Source: a virus. Taken from it: 64,000 bases of DNA. Shown piece after piece: positions 27,805 through 41,583 of this stretch. The notes beneath the pieces were generated by a model, which worked only from the letters and a program-made list of their open reading frames with translations, searched no databases and had not been told where the DNA came from. A program made the position numbers and the translations under genes. The stretch lies in the IMG/VR virus record IMGVR_UViG_3300042346_000266, positions 1 to 64,000 of that record; one strand, written 5' to 3'. Position 1 is the stretch's first letter, and each line of letters opens with the position of its first letter.

Positions 27805-29259
27805 TTACACTGATGCAGTAAACAACACGAAATTGTTAGCAGCTTGTGTAACTAAACATCTTTCTGACAAGAAGTGAACTTGCATTGCATCAAGATCAGA
27901 AGTATAAGCACCTCCAACAGATCCAGTAATCCAAGACTTCATACGTCTGTCATCAGCTTGGTTAGCACGGTAACGAACATGCAAGAAAGGTCTGCGAATG
28001 TTAGTTCCTAATTGTTGATCGTAAACAGTAGATGTTCCAGCAGGGATAAGTACACCGTCAATAGAAGTGTTAGCAATACCACCACGAGTAGAAGCATCAT
28101 TCAAGTATTTCCAATCAGTTTTGTAAAAGTCATAAGAACCACGACGGAATCCAGAGAAACCTAAGTTCAATGCCATTTGCTCAGAGTTTTCAAATAAACC
28201 GTAAGCAACACCACCGGCTGCGCCAGAAGATAAAGAAGCAAGCATATCATCAAAGTCAAGGGAAGTAGCTCTATTTAAGAAGAACATGTTCTCTTCAACC
28301 GCTCCTTGTGTATCTAAGTTTTTCAAAATAGAATCAAAATCACTTAGACCTCCAACTGCTGTAAAGTTGTTTACAACATTACCTCTGCTTCTAATAGCAG
28401 CAAAAAGACCTTGTGTACCTTTGTATACCGCGCCATCACCTGTAGCAGCAATGTTAGCAACACCAGAACCAGAAGCAGCTAATTCACCTTCAATAACTGA
28501 CATTTCTAAGTAATCTTCAAAACGCAATCTTGTTTCAGATTCTGCTTTAAGATACCATAAGAAACCTCCTGCTCCGTCTTCAGTAGCAATTTCAACCCAC
28601 CCAATTTGAGCTGTATCAGATCCAGAGATTTGATATTTCTCTTTAATAATGATAGGCGAATTATTGTATTGAGTAAAAGAAGGAGTTACAGAGTTTATAG
28701 AAGCATCTGTTGTTCCTTTCTTAAATTCAGAACCATACACAAAAATTTTAAGGTTTGTGTTTGCGGCGCTCCATACTACTGATCCAGAATATAAGCTAGC
28801 TTGAGTATAAGTAGCAACAGTAAGAGTAGCCGTAGTAGAAACAGTTGTAGAAGCTGTAACTAATACTTTCAATTCTTTACCTGTTGTTGGATCCATAACT
28901 ACTAAAGTTTGTCCGGGGGAAATAACGTTAGCAACAAAGTTTTGGCCAGTACCACCAACTGTAAAAGTCAATGTAGTAGCTGTAGCAGCTGTAACGTCAT
29001 TATAAGCAATGTGTAGTCTATTTTGTTCAGACCAAATAACTTGATCAGAAGACATAGGCATTTCAGCACCTACCATACGTAAGAATCCAGATAAAGTTCT
29101 GTTTCCGTAACGCTCTACTTCTGCTTCGTAGATTTCTGGTAAATATTGTTGCGCGAAATCATTACCACTTCCATTTGCAAAGTTTAAGTAATTTGTTTCT
29201 AACGCTTGTTGTTTTTGACTCGGTTTAATTGAACCGAATTGTGGGGTCACGTTTGACAT
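27805..29259 (-). CDS. Major capsid protein
   Basis: 484 residues. The start (QKQQALETNYLNFANGSG, QQYLPEIYEAEVERYGNRTL) and SDQVIWSEQNRLHI are typical of major capsid proteins of Bacteroidetes podovirus-like phages. A long helix-plus-beta body with an inserted Thr/Ala-rich beta domain (residues about 85-150) fits an HK97-type fold with an insertion. It follows the scaffold gene and is followed by its own terminator, both expected for the most abundant virion protein. Confidence 0.85.
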   Translation of the reverse strand: MSNVTPQFGSIKPSQKQQALETNYLNFANGSGNDFAQQYLPEIYEAEVERYGNRTLSGFLRMVGAEMPMSSDQVIWSEQNRLHIAYNDVTAATATTLTFTVGGTGQNFVANVISPGQTLVVMDPTTGKELKVLVTASTTVSTTATLTVATYTQASLYSGSVVWSAANTNLKIFVYGSEFKKGTTDASINSVTPSFTQYNNSPIIIKEKYQISGSDTAQIGWVEIATEDGAGGFLWYLKAESETRLRFEDYLEMSVIEGELAASGSGVANIAATGDGAVYKGTQGLFAAIRSRGNVVNNFTAVGGLSDFDSILKNLDTQGAVEENMFFLNRATSLDFDDMLASLSSGAAGGVAYGLFENSEQMALNLGFSGFRRGSYDFYKTDWKYLNDASTRGGIANTSIDGVLIPAGTSTVYDQQLGTNIRRPFLHVRYRANQADDRRMKSWITGSVGGAYTSDLDAMQVHFLSERCLVTQAANNFVLFTASV

Positions 29260-30488: not shown

Positions 30489-32885
30489 TTAACTAATACC
30501 TAAAGTGCTTAATAAGTCTTCTTCTTCTGACTCAAAATCTTTTGGCATTGCATTATTCTTTCTTTGGTCTATTAATTCGGATTGTTGAGTTGCTTGTATT
30601 TTGGTACGTTTATCTTTCCTATCCTCTGCAAATTGTAAACCTTGAGCTTTTATTTGTGATTGTATTTGTGCTAATTGCATATCATACTGGAATTTTTGTT
30701 CCATCATTTGCTGCTTAAGTTGCATTTCCATTTGCATTCTTTGCATGTCAAATTGTGATTTAGCCCTTTCAATATTAACAGTCTCTTGTGTTAAAGCTTG
30801 CTGCTTTTGCACCTCAAATAAAGCTGCTTGTTGAGCGGTTTGCTGATTTGCTTGAGCCTGCGCTTGAATATTCTGCATTTGAGCATCCTGCATAGCTTTT
30901 TGTTTCTTCTTCTTTCTTAGCTTCAATAATTGATTAGCAGATTTAAGATTACGGATTTGACGGATATCTATTGCATCGTCAAGATCAATACCACCACTTT
31001 GTAAAGCTACTTGGATATTTTGCTCTAGCATAACTTTTTCTTCATCATCTGGTTCTAATTCTAAATATATACCAAAATCATGTAGATTAAGTTTTTTAAT
31101 TTCTTCCAATGTCTTCGTATTATAAACAGTTATACTCTGCTCTAATACTTTTGCAGTTAATGGATAACTTAAGCAATCAGCTATTCTTAGTGATATATTT
31201 TCACATATCCTTAAAGTTAAGAACATACTAGCTTGCAATATATGTCTGGTCGCGGTATTTGAAGCGTTTGCAGCCATTTTTTGTAGACCAACTAAAGAGT
31301 CTTTGTCTGGCGTGCTTCCATCTCTCGCTTCATTTAATCCTGTGACATCTCTTATTAATTGTAAATAATATTGATACGTTTGTATTAACGACGCGATTTT
31401 AGCCTGCCCAGACGAACTTGTTAGTTCCTGAATTGGTATTTTACCAGCATTTGCTCCGCCATCTTGCGTTAATGATCTACCAACAATACTACCTGTCTGA
31501 AAGTACATATTTAATGCTTCAGCAGGATTATAATTTGTTCCATTACCTAAATCTACTTCTGCTAAGCCATCTACATCTACAAATACTCCATCTGGAACAA
31601 CTCGAGACATAACTTGCTGCAACTTTAGGTGGGTTAACTGTATCATATCAGCAAACCCTGTAATTTTATTAACTATAGAATCAATTCTGCCTTTGTACAT
31701 TCTAGGTGCACAAATAACATAATTCATTTCCACCTTTGTTGTATTAGCAAATGGGCGTGTCATATTTTCGGACAACTTCCACTCGAGCATTGTTTGTGTG
31801 CCTAATATTTTAGCGCCAGTATATAATACTTCTATAGTTCTGGATACTTTTTCAAAGTTCTCATTTTCAGGGGGGTTGAATTCGTCTGTTTTTTCAATGG
31901 ACTTTTCTAAACCATTTTCGCCTTTTTTTATTTTGAACACTTGGTTCATATAAGTTTTGTATTCAAAATACATAACTTGAACTGTATTCTCATCATAATT
32001 ACCCCATCCTGTTATATATTGCCTATTACCAGGCATTTGTTGTATTTTATATAACTCTTCCTCGGTAAGTTGCGGGTATTGCTTCTTTAACTCAGGTATT
32101 GTAACAGCTTTAACTTCTCCTACATAGTATATATCTTCGAAATTTGGATCTTCTGTATACGAATATACTAGATAAGCAGGATCAACATATTCCGTTTTAA
32201 TACCTTCCGAAATATTAAAATTTGTTTTACAACAAGCAATACCTAATACCGTTAGGTCATAGTTTAATCTTCTTCTAACTAAATCCCACTTATTAGCATC
32301 AAGTACATTATTAATTGCTTCTTCTTCAGCTATCTCTATTGATTGCTTATAAGATAATTGCATATGAAGATCCAACTCCTCTTTTGTTTCTGGCAATTCT
32401 TCTTGAGGCAAAGGTGATGCAGAGAAGTCTTTACCAAGCATTTGTTTTGCTTTGCTTAGTAAATCTTTTGAGTACATATCTCTAAGCACTGATTCCGCAT
32501 AAGAAGTTCTATTCTTTAAAGACTCAGGATCTTGCGCATACGCTTTGATATCGTAAGTCTTTTGAGACATACCATTAACTACTATATCTACAAATTTAGA
32601 AATAACAGGCACAGGTTTCCAGTCTAAATTAAGATAAGACAAGTCCCCATTGATTGCTAATTCATCTTTATATTTTTGTACCGATTGTTCTCCTCTTGCA
32701 TATAATCTTAATTGATGAAAATTATTCCAATTAGAAACATATCTATTTTGAGTAGTTCTACTCTGATCAAACCATTCTTGTTCTATTGCTCTAGATACTT
32801 GTAGTCCATATTCCATAGATGCCTTTTCAGCATCACTAACTACTTGACTTGGAAAAGCACTGTTCGTATTTGTATATATATTCAT
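30489..32885 (-). CDS. Portal protein
   Basis: 798 residues. Motifs such as FHQLRLYARGEQSVQKYKDE, LDWKPVPVISKFVDIVVNGM and a helical C-terminal clip/barrel region match portal proteins of the crAss-like type. Residues about 655-760 form a Gln/Met-rich coiled coil (QNIQAQAQANQQTAQQ), unusual in length for a portal and perhaps projecting into the head. Its ATG overlaps the terminase stop by one base (TAATG), indicating translational coupling. Confidence 0.85.
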   Translation of the reverse strand: MNIYTNTNSAFPSQVVSDAEKASMEYGLQVSRAIEQEWFDQSRTTQNRYVSNWNNFHQLRLYARGEQSVQKYKDELAINGDLSYLNLDWKPVPVISKFVDIVVNGMSQKTYDIKAYAQDPESLKNRTSYAESVLRDMYSKDLLSKAKQMLGKDFSASPLPQEELPETKEELDLHMQLSYKQSIEIAEEEAINNVLDANKWDLVRRRLNYDLTVLGIACCKTNFNISEGIKTEYVDPAYLVYSYTEDPNFEDIYYVGEVKAVTIPELKKQYPQLTEEELYKIQQMPGNRQYITGWGNYDENTVQVMYFEYKTYMNQVFKIKKGENGLEKSIEKTDEFNPPENENFEKVSRTIEVLYTGAKILGTQTMLEWKLSENMTRPFANTTKVEMNYVICAPRMYKGRIDSIVNKITGFADMIQLTHLKLQQVMSRVVPDGVFVDVDGLAEVDLGNGTNYNPAEALNMYFQTGSIVGRSLTQDGGANAGKIPIQELTSSSGQAKIASLIQTYQYYLQLIRDVTGLNEARDGSTPDKDSLVGLQKMAANASNTATRHILQASMFLTLRICENISLRIADCLSYPLTAKVLEQSITVYNTKTLEEIKKLNLHDFGIYLELEPDDEEKVMLEQNIQVALQSGGIDLDDAIDIRQIRNLKSANQLLKLRKKKKQKAMQDAQMQNIQAQAQANQQTAQQAALFEVQKQQALTQETVNIERAKSQFDMQRMQMEMQLKQQMMEQKFQYDMQLAQIQSQIKAQGLQFAEDRKDKRTKIQATQQSELIDQRKNNAMPKDFESEEEDLLSTLGIS

Positions 32886-35107
32886 TAATTACGTATTTTT
32901 GATGAAGAACCAGTATTATCGTATTTTTTAATTCCTAAATTATGGACCTGCCTAATTAAAGGAGCTGAAGGTGCATATCTATTTTTATTACATGCCATTA
33001 TAGCTAATCCCGAACTTATAGAAGCATCATGCTTTGTTCTGTCATTAATATTAAACCTTGCCCAATCATTTAATGTCTTATTGAAATACATATCTCCATA
33101 ACCATCTTCTCTAAGACCAACAAAATCTTCTATATAAGACTCTATAGCTGACGCGTGTGCTTGTTTTATATCTTCGCTTGAATTTGGTATACCTCCAATA
33201 TCTTTTTCTGTTATAGACAATTTATTCCATTCTTTATCCGGTCTATTCATCGAATAACCTCTATATCCTCTTCTTTTAAAATGGAATAACAATCTAGGTT
33301 TGTTATTTTCTGCTAATATTGGCATACCGTAAAATACACAAGCCATTAATACTTCCTCAAAAAAAATCTCAGCCGTTTGAGGTCTAGCTATATATTCTAA
33401 AAAGAACCTATTAGGGGGGACATCTTCCATCGAAAATTTAGTAAGTCCACTTAAAGCCCCATTAGACCCGCCTCCTCCAACCGCCCCGGATATATCATAA
33501 GGATCACATCCAAATGCACCACAATGTGCATTGCCGGGGTATTTCAAACCATTTTTTATAATTACATTATTTTGTAATTGAATAGGCGGTACCCAAGAAA
33601 CTAAAAACCTACCGTCTTTATTAGGATAAAACACTACTTTTGTATCAGGTATGCCATTTTCCCATTGAAAACTACCTCTTGTTATAATATCACTATTTCG
33701 CAAATCTTCATTATAATCTATCTGTTCGTATATCTTAGTTAAATTAAATAATGATTGCTTAGTTTCATCCCTAAAAGCGTGTTGTTCTGTTCTAGGAAAT
33801 TGTCTATAGTATTCATTAAGCCCATCTTGATCTGATTTTAAACCATCAACCTCATTTTGCCAATGCTCTATAACACCATATTCTATTTCATTGCCATCTA
33901 CACCTCTGATTGGTTTTTTTGGAGTATCGAATACAGGTAACCCATAAGTATCAATGAATCCCTCGTACGACCATTCCATAGGTATGAACAAACTATATAG
34001 TCCTGAACTAGTCTGTCCATTGCGGTTTCTTTTTGTGACATCGGAATCATAGTATAATTTTTTGAAGTTATCTCCTCCTTTATCTAAAGCATTTGATGTT
34101 GAACCCATCATACACTTACCTATTATCCGGCTACCTAATCTTAAACAGGTCTTAGTAACTCTCCAGTTATTTAATATATTATCAGGCTTCAACCATTTAC
34201 CACTTTCGTCATGAACTAAAAGTTTTAATTTTTCACCGTCATAAGAGTTATCTCCTGTATTTTTCCAATCGATTGTTGTATCAAGACCTGTTAATTCGCT
34301 ACCACTCTCTTTGCTATCAAGTTTTTTTCTTGTAAATTTAGAAGCAGGAACTCTATATGCTAATTCTGTTTTAGGTCTATCCATACCATCTTGGATAGGC
34401 TTGAAAAAAAACGGATAGTTTAATGAAATAGGTACAACCTTGTCGGTAAACATTGTTTTAGCATCAGCCCCTGTCTTTGATAGTATACCAAATCTGGAGT
34501 CACTAGATATAGTTGCTTGATTAACTAATTCAGAAGAAGACATAAAAGAAAAACCGGAACGTCTATTCTTTAAGTAACACATTCCATAACACCTTTGGTC
34601 GGCTTTGCATGCTTCCCAAAATATAAAGAATAATCTATTGGATTCCCTAAAATCAGGAGCGCCCACATCTATTTTGCTCCATTGAAGGTACATATAATGT
34701 GTGCCTGTTATGTATGTTGGAGTGCCATTATTGTAAAAAGCTAAACCTTCTTCTCTATATTTAAATTCATTATCAATATAATCATACCATCTGTCTTTAA
34801 AAGCATCGGGTTGCTTATCCCATTCAAATGTACTCTTTATCTTGCTTAAATCTTTCGGGAATTCTATTTGCTCCCAATATTGTTCTTCCTTATTTTTAGA
34901 CCTAGAATATACACTTTCAATTAATGGTAATGCTATCTTTAAATTTTGGATTTCGAGTATCTCACCAATCTTTCCAGTCTTGCTAATAATAACCATATCA
35001 TGGTCTTTATTATACCCATACTTCCATTTTTTTAGTCTATTATTTTGTTTTATAACGCTAGATTTTACGTGGTTAGGCAAAACACTATACAAAGTTTGTT
35101 CGTACAT
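32885..35107 (-). CDS. Terminase large subunit
   Basis: 740 residues. The ATPase half has a divergent Walker A region (YLKNRRSGFSFMSS) and Walker B-like LKLLVHDESGKW followed by a coupling region (KCMMGSTSNALDKGG). The nuclease half has an RNase H-like FGCDPYDISGA with the first metal Asp, and later acidic residues. It powers DNA translocation into the head and cuts packaged DNA. The non-canonical P-loop is worth noting but is shared, as far as I recall, by relatives. The small 91-aa gene just upstream may be its partner. Confidence 0.85.
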   Translation of the reverse strand: MYEQTLYSVLPNHVKSSVIKQNNRLKKWKYGYNKDHDMVIISKTGKIGEILEIQNLKIALPLIESVYSRSKNKEEQYWEQIEFPKDLSKIKSTFEWDKQPDAFKDRWYDYIDNEFKYREEGLAFYNNGTPTYITGTHYMYLQWSKIDVGAPDFRESNRLFFIFWEACKADQRCYGMCYLKNRRSGFSFMSSSELVNQATISSDSRFGILSKTGADAKTMFTDKVVPISLNYPFFFKPIQDGMDRPKTELAYRVPASKFTRKKLDSKESGSELTGLDTTIDWKNTGDNSYDGEKLKLLVHDESGKWLKPDNILNNWRVTKTCLRLGSRIIGKCMMGSTSNALDKGGDNFKKLYYDSDVTKRNRNGQTSSGLYSLFIPMEWSYEGFIDTYGLPVFDTPKKPIRGVDGNEIEYGVIEHWQNEVDGLKSDQDGLNEYYRQFPRTEQHAFRDETKQSLFNLTKIYEQIDYNEDLRNSDIITRGSFQWENGIPDTKVVFYPNKDGRFLVSWVPPIQLQNNVIIKNGLKYPGNAHCGAFGCDPYDISGAVGGGGSNGALSGLTKFSMEDVPPNRFFLEYIARPQTAEIFFEEVLMACVFYGMPILAENNKPRLLFHFKRRGYRGYSMNRPDKEWNKLSITEKDIGGIPNSSEDIKQAHASAIESYIEDFVGLREDGYGDMYFNKTLNDWARFNINDRTKHDASISSGLAIMACNKNRYAPSAPLIRQVHNLGIKKYDNTGSSSKIRN

Positions 35108-35382
35108 TATTTAGACCTCCCTTCCGCAAATCCTTTAAATACTTTAGTCTCAGGTTCTTTTTCGCTTTCTACTAAAATTTTTTCTTCATCCTGTATTCTA
35201 CTAAGAATTTCAAAGGCGTCAAATATCGCTAGCTTTTTAGTAGCGGCAGCATTTTTTAATTTATCAGCTGCCAAATCATCTTCGCCATTATCTAAAATAG
35301 CTTCTTCGGCAACCTTAATCAGTTCAAGTACCGCTTTGTGCCCAGCAAGTATTATATTCTGCTTCGTCTCCTTTATATTCAT
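35107..35382 (-). CDS. Small helical protein next to terminase, candidate small terminase
   Basis: 91 residues, helical (TKQNIILAGHKAVLELIKVA), with acidic patches and a basic C-terminus. It lies immediately before the terminase large subunit with a one-base overlap, and its start lies inside the end of the preceding gene (59-base overlap). Size and position suit a small terminase or packaging cofactor, but no diagnostic HTH is evident. Confidence 0.5.
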   Translation of the reverse strand: MNIKETKQNIILAGHKAVLELIKVAEEAILDNGEDDLAADKLKNAAATKKLAIFDAFEILSRIQDEEKILVESEKEPETKVFKGFAEGRSK

Positions 35383-35932
35383 ATTTAATTACAATATCAT
35401 TAGATTTCATACAATAAAGTCGCTTACCGTCTATAATAAAATCAAATTCACCTCCTGGCGTATAACCAACTAGGTCTCCCTCGTTTATTTTAAGCGCTTT
35501 TAACGAGCTATTTCCATATTTTAGTATACCAATAAGGCTTTGCTCTTTATTTAGTTTTAAATGGTCTGTATTCTTTATTGGGGCTATAAAACATCTATCG
35601 CCAAATGATTTCCATTCGGTATCATGTTTGTATAAATATATTTGATCAATATCACAAAAATATAAATCGTCCATAAAGTATGACCTACTATCTTTTTGCT
35701 TACCTCTTATATCATAAAATCTTCTAAAAACATTATGATGTATAACAACTAAATCGCCTTCCTTTATATCTGTTGAATATGCAAGTGGTACTGAAACCAC
35801 TTCGGCTATATTATTAACTGATTTAAAACTTTCAATTTTGGTATTTATTATTAGCTCTTTGTCTCCAACATTTATTTTGTTATTATACCTATTACCAACA
35901 GGTTTAACAATAAAACTAAATACACTTTTCAT
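35324..35932 (-). CDS. GroES-fold-like protein with two tandem domains
   Basis: 202 residues. Residues 1-95 look like a GroES barrel (FIVKPVGNRYNNKIN, VAEVVSVP-type strand, IKEGDLVVIHHNVFRRFYDI). Residues 105-190 look like a second one (GILKYGNSSLKALKINEGDL, then GEFDFIIDGKRLYCM). A classical co-chaperonin is a single barrel of about 95 residues; a double barrel is rarer. With GroEL and a separate small GroES-like gene nearby, it could be a capsid-specific co-chaperonin (compare T4 gp31) or a virion protein of the same fold. Assignment is by pattern only. Confidence 0.5.
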   Translation of the reverse strand: MKSVFSFIVKPVGNRYNNKINVGDKELIINTKIESFKSVNNIAEVVSVPLAYSTDIKEGDLVVIHHNVFRRFYDIRGKQKDSRSYFMDDLYFCDIDQIYLYKHDTEWKSFGDRCFIAPIKNTDHLKLNKEQSLIGILKYGNSSLKALKINEGDLVGYTPGGEFDFIIDGKRLYCMKSNDIVIKYEYKGDEAEYNTCWAQSGT

Positions 35933-37909: not shown

Positions 37910-38368
37910 TTAAAAGCTATTATTGTTTCTTGTTTTATCGTTATTTACATGTTCTATCGCTACTAGTCCAACAATATCAGAATATCTTTTACTTGTTGTC
38001 ATCGTATTCCTATAACTTGTTGGTATATCCTCTTTGCCAAGCATTATACGATACATTTTGCTTATTAGTTGTTTGCACTTAAATGAAACTTTATATATAT
38101 TATATTTTTGAGTCGTGCGGTTTCTATCTCTCCATACCACAATCCAACCTTCTTTTAATAACTTGTTCCAGCGTTTATTATCCCAACTATATGCGTATGT
38201 ACCTATCTCATAGTCATGTTTAGAAAAAAATTCTAAACAATCAAAATAAATAAGGAGTTCTAGATCAGAATCAGTTAAATTATTATTTCTGCAAGCCCAT
38301 CTTCTAATTATTCTATAATGCTTTAATAAACCAATATCTTTTATATCTGAAGCCTCTAACCTAATCAT
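37910..38368 (-). CDS. Winged-helix-like phage protein
   Basis: 152 residues. WACRNNNLTDSDLELLIYFD, WDNKRWNKLLKEGWIVVWRD and KYNIYKVSFKCKQLI follow the helix-turn-helix plus wing layout of MarR-like transcription regulators, and I recall similar proteins in the late region of related phages. Could regulate late genes or act in assembly. It overlaps the GroES gene by four bases. Confidence 0.55.
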   Translation of the reverse strand: MIRLEASDIKDIGLLKHYRIIRRWACRNNNLTDSDLELLIYFDCLEFFSKHDYEIGTYAYSWDNKRWNKLLKEGWIVVWRDRNRTTQKYNIYKVSFKCKQLISKMYRIMLGKEDIPTSYRNTMTTSKRYSDIVGLVAIEHVNNDKTRNNNSF

Positions 38369-38625
38369 AATACAACCACTACATCTCCTAATCTTATGAC
38401 ATGATATGTTTCTTTATCTATATCTATTTTATGCCCGGCATGCCTATCATAAAATATTCTATCGCCTTCTTTAACTCCAACTACTTCTTCTCCTACTGAT
38501 AAAACCTCAGCTTCAATATATCTAATATCTTCTCTTTGGTTCTCAGCTAAAAGTAAACCACCTTTAGTTTTTGTAGTACCTTCTTTTTTCTTACTTATAA
38601 CCAAGCATTTACCTACTGCTTTCAT
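38365..38625 (-). CDS. groES: Co-chaperonin GroES-like
   Basis: 86 residues, a single GroES barrel: start KAVGKCLVISKKKEGTTKTK, mobile loop GGLLLAENQ with a hydrophobic triplet that would contact GroEL, AEVLSVGEEVVGVKEGDRIF, and a C-terminal strand RLGDVVVVL. Slightly shorter than bacterial GroES (about 95). It starts within the last codons of GroEL (four-base overlap), so the two are made together. Order GroEL then GroES is the reverse of the bacterial groES-groEL operon. Confidence 0.85.
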   Translation of the reverse strand: MKAVGKCLVISKKKEGTTKTKGGLLLAENQREDIRYIEAEVLSVGEEVVGVKEGDRIFYDRHAGHKIDIDKETYHVIRLGDVVVVL

Positions 38626-40169
38626 TGTATTCTTAAATTATTGATTACACAGTCAGTCGATAATATAGTTGTAGCTACAGACGCGGCATTTTTTAAAGCA
38701 CTCTTAGTCACGAGTAATGGGTCAATAATTCCTTCTCTTATCATGTCTACTGTCTCGCCTGTTATAACATTTAATCCGTACCCAATACCAGTTACTATCT
38801 TTTCAGACATAACTTCTATACCGGCGTTACTTAATATTGTATTAAATGGAGACCTAATGGAATCTAATAATATCTCTTCGCCAACAGAAAATGCATCCAC
38901 ATTATATGAAGCATTTAATAAAGCTATGCCTCCTCCTGGAACAATACCTTCTTTAATAGCCGCCTTTGTTGCACAGATAGCATCCTCGATTCTATCTGCT
39001 TTTTCTTTTAATTCTATTTCTGAATTAGCACCAACTTTGACTACAGATATTTTTGCCGTTAATCTAGCTAGTCTTTTTTCTAGTTTTATAATAGTAGCGC
39101 TATTATTATTTTCTAATAATGATTTTTTAATATCATTAATTATATCTAAAACTTCTTCGCTTGGTTCACCTACGTGAAGTATAGTTTCTTCATGATTAGT
39201 TATGCTTTTAAAACAATTACCAAGCATAGAAGGATCTATTAAATCTAAATCGTCTCCAAGATCTTCATTTATTAGAGTAGCACCGGTTAATAAAGCAAGG
39301 TCATCAAATATTTCTTTCCTATTAATACCGTAGGTTGGTGCATTAATAACATTAACCTTTATATTCCCTTTAGATTTATTCATTGCTAATGTGGATAGAA
39401 CAATTTGTTCCATATCAGCTACAATTAATAAAGACCTATTATTTTTTATAACATACTCTAATACTTTTTGTATTTGGCGTATATTCTCAATAGGTGATTC
39501 AACTAATAATACTAAAGGATTATCTAGTTCTGCGGTTTTATTTTTATGGTTTGTTATAAAATGTGAATTTGTTAAACCCATTGAACACTGAACTCCTTCC
39601 ACTAGTTGTAAACTACACTCCGCATCAGATGAAGTTTCCATCATAACAATACCTGTATTTCCAACTGCTCTAAAAGCATCTCCTACTAATTTGCCTAATT
39701 CAGGATCATTATTTGTAGATATAGTAGCGATGTGATCTAACATATTATCGTCAACTAATACCGACAAATCTTCAAGATACTTAATAACATTATCAACCGC
39801 TTTATTGATACCTTCTTTAATTCTTCTAGTATCTGGGTTTTCTATTTTATAGGCATTTTTTAATATATTGTAAGCTAATACCGTTGCCGTTGTTGTACCA
39901 TCACCTGCTTCTCTAACAGTCTTGCGTGCAGCCTCTTTTAATAATGTAGCTCCCATGTTCTCTACCGGATCCAACAATATAATTGAATCAGCTACTGTCA
40001 CCCCGTCTTTAGTAATAACCGGTTTACCAGTAGAGTCTTCTAGTAAAACACATTTACCACTTGCCCCAAGAGTAGAACTAACAGCTTTTGATAATTTTTC
40101 TACGCCGGCGAATACTTTATCGCTCGCTTCTTTACCAAAACTTAAATTTTTGACTATAGCGTCTGACAT
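38622..40169 (-). CDS. groEL: Chaperonin GroEL
   Basis: 515 residues, versus about 548 in E. coli. The ATP site is complete: KDGVT (54-58), GDGTTTATVL (89-98), the EDAICATKAAIKEG block with the Asp equivalent of E. coli Asp398, and GIVPGGGIALLNA. The apical domain is divergent. The C-terminus ends NNLRIQ without the Gly-Gly-Met tail. It would form the ring that folds phage proteins, probably capsid or the giant tail proteins. Chaperonin genes are rare in phages, which usually borrow the host ring and bring only a GroES substitute. Confidence 0.93.
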   Translation of the reverse strand: MSDAIVKNLSFGKEASDKVFAGVEKLSKAVSSTLGASGKCVLLEDSTGKPVITKDGVTVADSIILLDPVENMGATLLKEAARKTVREAGDGTTTATVLAYNILKNAYKIENPDTRRIKEGINKAVDNVIKYLEDLSVLVDDNMLDHIATISTNNDPELGKLVGDAFRAVGNTGIVMMETSSDAECSLQLVEGVQCSMGLTNSHFITNHKNKTAELDNPLVLLVESPIENIRQIQKVLEYVIKNNRSLLIVADMEQIVLSTLAMNKSKGNIKVNVINAPTYGINRKEIFDDLALLTGATLINEDLGDDLDLIDPSMLGNCFKSITNHEETILHVGEPSEEVLDIINDIKKSLLENNNSATIIKLEKRLARLTAKISVVKVGANSEIELKEKADRIEDAICATKAAIKEGIVPGGGIALLNASYNVDAFSVGEEILLDSIRSPFNTILSNAGIEVMSEKIVTGIGYGLNVITGETVDMIREGIIDPLLVTKSALKNAASVATTILSTDCVINNLRIQ

Positions 40170-40226: not shown

Positions 40227-40361
40227 CTAACCTTGGCCATTATAAGATTTTTTATAATTCTTACTTGACTTCAAACTGGAGGTTTTAGACTTAGCATGAA
40301 TACCAGGTCTACTAATGTTTTTCTTTTGTTTTATTTCTATTTTATTTGTTTGCTTTTTCAT
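40227..40361 (-). CDS. Very small basic protein (44 aa)
   Basis: Begins MKKQTNKIEIKQKKN and contains SRPGIHAKSKTSSLKSSKNY, ending NGQG, stop TAG. The RPGIHAKSK...KNYKKSY...GQG pattern is one I recognise from tiny proteins of other phages, which supports it being real. Basic and probably DNA- or virion-associated. Lies directly after the outer spanin-like gene. Confidence 0.7.
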   Translation of the reverse strand: MKKQTNKIEIKQKKNISRPGIHAKSKTSSLKSSKNYKKSYNGQG

Positions 40362-40362
40362 A

Positions 40363-40815
40363 TTAAAATAAACGTATTAATGTATAATGAAAACTAATGC
40401 CACCTGATGGTTGCTTATTTATAGCGTCGTAGCCGGCATAAAATCCTATACCAAATCTTTTTTTGTTTTTAGATTCTAATTTAGCTAGTTTAACTTCTTG
40501 CTCTTCTTGTTTCTTTAAAGAACCTAATAATCCAGCTTGCAAATCTAAATTATGATTAACAAAAGCACTAGATTCTTCTCCTAAAGCAACAGCTAAATCT
40601 TGTATTTGTTTGTATTTATTTTCAAACTCTCTCATCTCTGCATTATATCTATCTTGGCAGTCTTTAACTTGCTTTGTAAGTTCTTTATGCTGGATAGCTA
40701 TGCCATACAAAGCTTTAACCCTTTCTGGAGAATTTAAATCTTTAGTTTGGCTGTACAGTGTCAAGCACCCTACGCATAACATCATAACTAGTATCTCTAA
40801 CTTTAATAGTTTCAT
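40363..40815 (-). CDS. Outer-membrane spanin-like protein
   Basis: 150 residues. A signal-like N-terminus (MKLLKLEILVMMLCVGCLTL) contains a Cys that could be a lipobox (weak consensus) or a cleavage site near YSQ. A long coiled coil follows (KELTKQVKDCQDRYNAEM). The last 35 residues look like outer-membrane beta strands ending in aromatic Phe. Its start overlaps the end of the inner spanin-like gene by 74 bases in another frame, the classic Rz/Rz1 arrangement. Would fuse inner and outer membranes at lysis. Confidence 0.6.
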   Translation of the reverse strand: MKLLKLEILVMMLCVGCLTLYSQTKDLNSPERVKALYGIAIQHKELTKQVKDCQDRYNAEMREFENKYKQIQDLAVALGEESSAFVNHNLDLQAGLLGSLKKQEEQEVKLAKLESKNKKRFGIGFYAGYDAINKQPSGGISFHYTLIRLF

Positions 40816-41110
40816 ATTTAATTCTTTTAGGTTTAAATTTTGTTAATCTTTTTATTTCTTTAACTTTTTCTTGCGTAGAGCTATCGTGAGCTTTAACATG
40901 CTCAACTAATGCTTCTTTGTTTTGTTCAACTTCTATCTTGGTATCAACTAATTCATTTTTTGTTCTCTCTATTTTAACAGCTCTTCTAGCTTTAGAAAAC
41001 CCATTAATAGACATAACAATAACAATTATAATAATTAAAACAATTAATCCTATTAAAATATAGTCTTTTATTTTATTTGGAATTGCATTAAGTTTCTGTA
41101 ATATATTCAT
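40742..41110 (-). CDS. Inner-membrane spanin-like protein
   Basis: 122 residues. One transmembrane segment (YILIGLIVLIIIIVIVMSI) near the N-terminus is followed by a periplasmic coiled coil (KIERTKNELVDTKIEVEQNK) and a basic C-terminus. Topology and place, directly after the lysozyme gene and overlapping the next coiled-coil envelope protein, are those of an i-spanin (Rz). Confidence 0.65.
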   Translation of the reverse strand: MNILQKLNAIPNKIKDYILIGLIVLIIIIVIVMSINGFSKARRAVKIERTKNELVDTKIEVEQNKEALVEHVKAHDSSTQEKVKEIKRLTKFKPKRIKYETIKVRDTSYDVMRRVLDTVQPN

Positions 41111-41112
41111 AA

Positions 41113-41583
41113 TTATTTGAAGTATAAGTTAGCTTCTCTTTGTCTTCTCTTAGTTAATCCATTATTAATCTTACCATTAACTTTGTTCCATTTAGCAAAC
41201 TCTCTAGCGATAGTTGGATCATTTGGGTTGGCATTTACTTTACGAAGTAATGTACTGTCCCCTAAACCTTCAGGGATATTATCCGCGTCAATATCTGAAC
41301 CAACGTTGTATGCAAAAGATACAAGGGCATTAAATTGATTTTGATTAATAGTAGATGTAACAAGTTTATCCACATCCTTAGCAAACATGTTAACTGTTTG
41401 TTTCAACATCCAATAAGCTGTTGCTTGTGTAATTGGTTTGTCTTTCATTGTAACTTTTGCCCCACTAGGATAGAATGTATTACCATATCCTATAGTTGGT
41501 ACTCCTGCAGGACATAAATAAGGGGATAATCTTAATCCTTCATCCTTGGCTATCATTTGGTATAATTCTTCATTCGGACTCAT
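41113..41583 (-). CDS. T4-type lysozyme (endolysin), E-C-T triad
   Basis: 156 residues of the glycoside hydrolase 24 family. The catalytic stretch KDEGLRLSPYLCPAGVPTIG has Glu15, Cys24 and Thr30 at the spacing of T4 lysozyme Glu11-Asp20-Thr26; Cys at the Asp position is known in phage P1 Lyz-type enzymes. NQFNALVSFAYNVG and the C-terminal KRRQREANLY block complete the fold. No N-terminal signal, so it needs a holin; the gene upstream may provide it. Cuts peptidoglycan glycan strands at lysis. Confidence 0.9.
   Translation of the reverse strand: MSPNEELYQMIAKDEGLRLSPYLCPAGVPTIGYGNTFYPSGAKVTMKDKPITQATAYWMLKQTVNMFAKDVDKLVTSTINQNQFNALVSFAYNVGSDIDADNIPEGLGDSTLLRKVNANPNDPTIAREFAKWNKVNGKINNGLTKRRQREANLYFK

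Follow-up and report, generated by a model that had tools for sequence, protein, structure and literature searches.

The virus record IMGVR_UViG_3300042346_000266 (65,916 bases), of which the first 64,000 nucleotides were analysed here (the window), encodes a GroEL, a single-domain GroES and a second co-chaperonin predicted to carry two Cpn10 domains in tandem, and these genes probably provide the phage, a virus of Bacteroidota, with a late-expressed chaperonin of its own that serves the virion proteins and, like that of chloroplasts, has two genes for lids. While the GroEL/GroES pair belongs to an already known class of phage chaperonins, found in many marine phages, the tandem co-chaperonin, which was overlooked in the original prediction for this locus, is the more unusual feature. 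Judging from the predicted structure, a chaperonin set with such a tandem Cpn10 appears to be new; sequence records list its tandem member under the names 'chaperonin cpn10' or 'co-chaperonin GroES', and the available text of the open PMC literature yielded no description of a tandem Cpn10 form in phages.

The phage GroEL

The groEL gene (38622-40169, minus strand) encodes a protein of 515 amino acids (55.4 kDa) that matches Pfam Cpn60 over 487 of 490 profile positions (E 6.9e-56) and the PHROGs family phage chaperonin groEL (E 3.3e-131), and is identical to E. coli GroEL at 196 of 512 aligned residues. Both this full-length Cpn60 homology and the partner Cpn10 encoded together with it place the protein among the group I chaperonins. 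Its ATP-site motifs had been described as complete. In this regard, T30, L31, G32, K51, D52, G53, D87, G88, T89, T90, T91, I150, D398, G414, G415, I454, N479, I493 and D495 are the same as in E. coli GroEL, and these include all of D52, D87, T89-T91, D398, N479 and D495, which we take to be the ATP-binding and hydrolysis residues; a loss of residues needed for ATP use was sought, and none was found at the catalytic sites of the window GroEL. The description thus holds for the catalytic residues but not for P33, A480 and A481 (E. coli numbering), which differ in the phage protein, the other ATP-site residues checked being present.

The catalytic columns are likewise uniform in 80/80 lineage proteins (the window and 79 IMG/VR loci among the matches listed), except for those of N479 (75 N, 5 D) and D495 (79 D, 1 N). 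Three loci were left out of this alignment, namely the short L099 and L100 and L025, whose groEL, from 801, has an in-frame TAG after about codon 233 that may be a sequencing error or an amber codon. Comparison with 11 related loci, two of them without some of the genes, gave dN/dS values of 0.03-0.13 for GroEL, indicative of purifying selection, 0.08-0.18 for GroES and 0.06-0.14 for the tandem protein. Among the apical groove positions, at which E. coli GroEL binds its substrates and GroES, F204, L237 and L259 are retained and five others are changed (Y199L, Y203H, L234Q, V263A and V264M); because of these changes, lid binding by the phage GroEL may differ. The missing GGM tail, which had been regarded as distinctive, does separate the phage protein from bacterial GroELs, 67/70 of which possess it, but is shared with all 80 lineage GroELs among the matches listed and with 16/16 other phage GroELs examined.

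GroES and the gene order

The groES gene (38365-38625, minus strand) encodes a single Cpn10 domain of 86 amino acids that is recognized by Pfam Cpn10 (E 3.1e-13) and by the PHROGs family co-chaperonin GroES (E 9.2e-15), and the AlphaFold model of which matches GroES structures, in keeping with a Cpn10 fold. Its mobile loop, modelled at low confidence (pLDDT ~54-64), contains a mostly conserved GGLLL and thereby the hydrophobic tripeptide that we take to be the GroEL-binding element. The roof hairpin is 9 alignment columns shorter than that of E. coli GroES, a shortening seen in nearly all phage GroES aligned, and many Bacteroidota GroES already have a roof about 5 columns shorter.

The proposal that GroES is coupled downstream of GroEL was borne out by exact coordinates, by the Pfam matches of both proteins and by a 4-nt overlap (ATGA, 38622-38625, minus strand) between the groEL stop and the groES start. 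This overlap had itself been viewed as distinctive; it is present in the window but amounts to 1, 4 or 17 nt in relatives. Among the matches listed, groES directly abuts groEL in the order EL then ES in 80/80 IMG/VR loci of the virus lineage and begins 0-6 nt past the last matched GroEL codon. The same order is found in 10 of 11 lineage-type groEL contigs assigned to bacterial or archaeal MAG bins, the eleventh ending before groES could be seen. These bins (L090-L100) were named as Aliivibrio, Chloroflexi, Euryarchaeota and others, and reflect either viral contigs within MAGs or misbinning. The remaining 69 loci of that scan are bacterial, and 68 of them have ES before EL, the sole EL..ES locus (L112, Phycisphaerales) having its genes 236 nt apart. 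The claim that gene order sets the window apart is therefore correct with respect to bacteria but not with respect to phages, since elemo, ctfjg026 and Panino share it, with a 44-aa basic ORF intervening in Panino, whose GroES was confirmed by Pfam. A lysine-rich ORF of likewise 44 aa lies just upstream of groEL in the window (40227-40361, minus strand).

The tandem co-chaperonin

The second co-chaperonin gene (35324-35932, minus strand) encodes a protein of 202 amino acids (23.3 kDa) that matches phrog_13932, 'co-chaperonin GroES' (E 2.3e-26). An AlphaFold2 model built on an alignment of 29 proteins predicts two beta-rich domains (pLDDT 82.9, pTM 0.77), with less certain loops near residues 20-40 and 121-130. 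L193 was omitted from alignment A2 because of a stop in its frame. The top PDB match in Foldseek is the Cpn20 chain 7ekq_R (E 7.1e-6), presumably from Chlamydomonas, followed by 4pj1_U, 7ekq_Q and then GroES and Cpn10 chains, and VIA-align superposes 159 residues of the model, over 1-185, on 7ekq_R (Z 10.3, rmsd 3.9, 14% identity). Because single GroES chains align to residues 106-185 (Z ~8) and T4 gp31 aligns to residues 1-103 (Z 6.5), both halves of the predicted structure appear to be Cpn10-like, which suggests two Cpn10 domains in one chain. Sequence support for this arrangement is weak: the Pfam Cpn10 score is below the cut-off (14.1 vs 21.1 bits) and concerns the C-terminal half only, profile comparison gave no match between the halves, and a search of PDB sequences with the protein's profile found no Cpn10.

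Within the 29 aligned proteins, the N-terminal loop is strongly conserved (L27 in 29/29, I/V28 in 29/29, L/I/V29 in 27/29 and N30 in 29/29), and this L-I/V-hydrophobic-N motif resembles, in our view, a GroEL-binding tripeptide; no such tripeptide is present in their C-terminal loop. The model thus places the protein close to chloroplast Cpn20, with two Cpn10 domains head to tail, but there is no sign of a common descent of the duplication, and the C-terminal loop sets the two apart.

The gene is present in 69/80 IMG/VR loci among the matches listed, the 11 without it being loci that do not reach the terminase gene, and it adjoins terminase in 64/64 of the listed loci that do. In L012 and L073, the distance between the two genes is ~764 nt instead of the ~220 found elsewhere among the matches listed, and an extra gene probably lies in between. 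In the window, the interval is occupied by a gene for a 91-aa protein (35107-35382, minus strand), with a gene of similar size at this place in phi19:3.

Distribution in phages and bacteria

A profile search of 14 phage records for GroEL, single GroES and the tandem protein revealed all three genes in phi38:1, Calle_1, Panino, ctfjg026 and elemo, GroEL and GroES without the tandem protein in immuto and DAC16, GroEL alone in phi14:2, and none of the three in Gundel_1. The Flavobacterium elemo phages and podovirus ctfjg026 resemble the window in their EL-then-ES order, in the absence of a GGM tail and in a tandem Cpn10 gene upstream of terminase, although elemo GroEL is only 38% identical to that of the window and in elemo the two genes are oriented opposite to those for the head. 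The Cellulophaga phages phi38:1 and Calle (Pervagoviridae) also combine GroEL and a single GroES with a tandem Cpn10 beside terminase, but in these phages ES precedes EL, with a gene between the two in Calle_1. The Cellulophaga phages phi19:3, phi18:3, phi46:3 and phi13:2 (Pachyviridae) share with the window a single GroES and, beside terminase, a Cpn10 of tandem length, which their records name 'chaperonin cpn10' or 'co-chaperonin GroES', yet GroEL was found in 0/4 of them. A tblastn search with the window copy of the tandem protein had missed these four phages, retrieving 77 records as compared to 87 terminase records. The idea that the tandem protein is a constant companion of phage GroEL was dropped on their account: since both lids occur there without a phage GroEL, the tandem protein need not partner one. 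In MaF61, a GroEL-like gene is directly preceded by ORF64 (L178:1912-2475), the product of which (187 aa) is matched twice by Pfam Cpn10; the GroEL of this phage is divergent, and a third Cpn10 is located elsewhere in its genome.

In a host control of 399 genomes of one bacterial order, the tandem profile matched in three, none in a clearly chromosomal setting: one match is on a viral contig with a 74%-identical terminase, one is a fragment, and one is another tandem Cpn10, an ORF of 205 aa (L286:1507-2124, minus strand) that contains two Cpn10-like repeats and neighbours a DNA methyltransferase gene, perhaps in a prophage. Single Cpn10 was detected in 142/150 genomes. On these sequence searches, the tandem gene does not appear to be a usual host gene.

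Genomic context and proposed mechanism

The chaperonin genes lie in one same-strand block that runs from the lysis genes, comprising an endolysin of the phage lysozyme type (41113-41583; Pfam E 4.8e-38) and an Rz-like spanin candidate (40742-41110; phrog_8821, E 5.1e-5), through GroEL, GroES and the tandem protein to the terminase large subunit (32885-35107; phrog_6681, E 3.2e-167), the portal protein (30489-32885; phrog_6547, E 6.8e-149) and structural proteins, all on the minus strand. The latter include a 52.3-kDa virion structural protein (27805-29259, minus strand; phrog_13704, E 1.2e-97), a major-capsid candidate and possible client of the chaperonin. Because the chaperonin genes share this block with lysis and head/packaging genes, late co-expression is suggested; a promoter scan gave results at chance level. 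No Pfam match was obtained for the two largest proteins encoded in the block, of 2821 and 2047 aa, or for its 509-aa protein.

In the mechanism that we consider probable, the phage would provide its own set, with GroEL as the ring protein, GroES as a lid of single domains and the tandem two-Cpn10 protein as a second lid, most likely made late together with the virion proteins. GroEL would form rings, hydrolyse ATP in the usual way and enclose new phage proteins under a lid, probably including the 52.3-kDa capsid-type protein. In T4, the phage-encoded lid gp31 helps to fold the 56-kDa gp23 and lacks roof loops (PMC6318259); the window GroES has a short roof, which should similarly give a more open dome, but gp31 works with host GroEL and the window phage has a GroEL of its own. 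For the relative phi38:1, GroEL peptides were reported both from infected cells and from samples of free virions, alongside the capsid protein; the tandem protein of this phage, gp089, does not appear in the available text of that report (PMC13288928). The tandem protein of the window would probably contribute to the lid or make it up entirely, either by itself or in combination with GroES, much like chloroplast Cpn20, which is used with single Cpn10s and a Cpn60; functional hetero-oligomers of Cpn20 and Cpn10 that comprise seven GroES-like domains have been described (PMC5780408; see also PMC4242682).

A more specific form of this proposal, which we advance tentatively and regard as somewhat short of an even chance, is that single and tandem Cpn10 form a mixed lid on the phage's own GroEL (for example three tandem proteins and one single, again seven domains), and that this is an independently evolved chloroplast-like Cpn10/Cpn20 system in phages of Bacteroidota, which is retained beside terminase also by relatives that would rely on the GroEL of their host.

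It is rather unlikely, though deserving of consideration, that GroEL and GroES are an ordinary auxiliary chaperonin that only raises folding capacity, the tandem protein being a former co-chaperonin that now serves in packaging or head assembly without binding GroEL. The tie of the tandem gene to terminase, retained without GroEL in all four phi19:3-type phages (4/4), its absence from immuto and DAC16 despite their GroEL, and the C-terminal loop without a binding tripeptide would fit such a change of function. However, the tripeptide of the N-terminal loop varies little or not at all among the 29 aligned proteins, and in the compared phage records the protein is annotated as co-chaperonin or hypothetical, never as structural. 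Moreover, since the phi19:3-type phages also have a normal GroES, a co-chaperonin role of the tandem protein with host GroEL stays natural.

Origin of the phage GroEL

A careful tree was built from 40 proteins out of 178 GroEL rows collected, without PBS1, OBP, MaF61, EL, D504 and ctf1B273; in a quick tree, PBS1, OBP, MaF61 and EL had very long branches. In the careful tree, the GroELs of the virus lineage form one clade (100/100) that joins those of elemo, ctfjg026 and Panino (99/94), followed by Calle_1, phi14:2, immuto and DAC16, and the whole phage group is placed inside the Bacteroidota GroELs (100/99). Joins among elemo, ctfjg026 and Panino are uncertain (80/73), and long branches limit these and the finer joins.

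It is very improbable that the window encodes a GroES-independent chaperonin of the type of the giant phages EL, OBP and AR9, which likewise have a phage-encoded Cpn60, reported in the available text to work without a co-chaperonin (PMC9598537). Both are phage GroELs without a GGM tail, but identity is only ~24-26% over ~80% of the protein, the two stand far apart in the quick tree, and the groES gene abutting groEL argues against this type. Least credible of all is a recent acquisition of the pair from a bacterial host: nesting with Bacteroidota GroELs would agree with it, but the single lineage clade joined to other Bacteroidota-phage GroELs, the ~38-42% identity to bacterial GroELs, the opposite bacterial gene order and the rejection of a tree constrained to group the lineage only with host GroELs (AU p 0.0002) speak against it, and the tree and AU test led us to reject it. 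The phylogenetic check proposed earlier thus placed GroEL outside recent host genes; on these sequence comparisons it represents an old branch that resides in phages and lies close to the GroELs of Bacteroidota, and its ultimate source is probably Bacteroidota in view of its nesting.

Since Calle_1, phi38:1, immuto and DAC16 have ES before EL, gene order would have switched once on the careful tree, a reading of that tree with no separate test. Marine et al. (2017, ISME J) are reported to have linked EL/ES order to GroEL phylogeny. The EL-then-ES order marks an old phage clade and is no oddity. More recent exchange is visible as well: the window and L006 form a mosaic over 41063-36700, with 95-100% identity at ~41063-38900, 98% at 37455-36700 and ~80% between and beyond, so that a breakpoint falls within groEL, pointing to recent recombination between related phages.

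Conclusions and perspectives

The notion that phages usually carry only a co-chaperonin was not supported, as 280/50,697 phage records, a few of them mislabelled bacterial contigs, match GroEL by tblastn, all at less than 60% identity and 244 of them over 80% or more of the query. IMG/VR adds at least 80 lineage loci with 68-99% identity to the window GroEL, and as early as 2017 GroEL had been described in 36 environmental genomes belonging to the phi38:1 group (PMC5332604). A full GroEL is therefore not rare in phages, which corrects the idea of its rarity. Tandem Cpn10 has been described as a co-chaperonin unique to chloroplasts, where it is a recognized puzzle how a double lid can fit a barrel of seven-fold symmetry (PMC5780408). 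In conclusion, a phage that combines one barrel with both a single and a double lid provides a small and probably independently evolved case of this arrangement, and its cultured relatives would allow tests of the composition of the lid, the size of the cage and the virion proteins that serve as clients.
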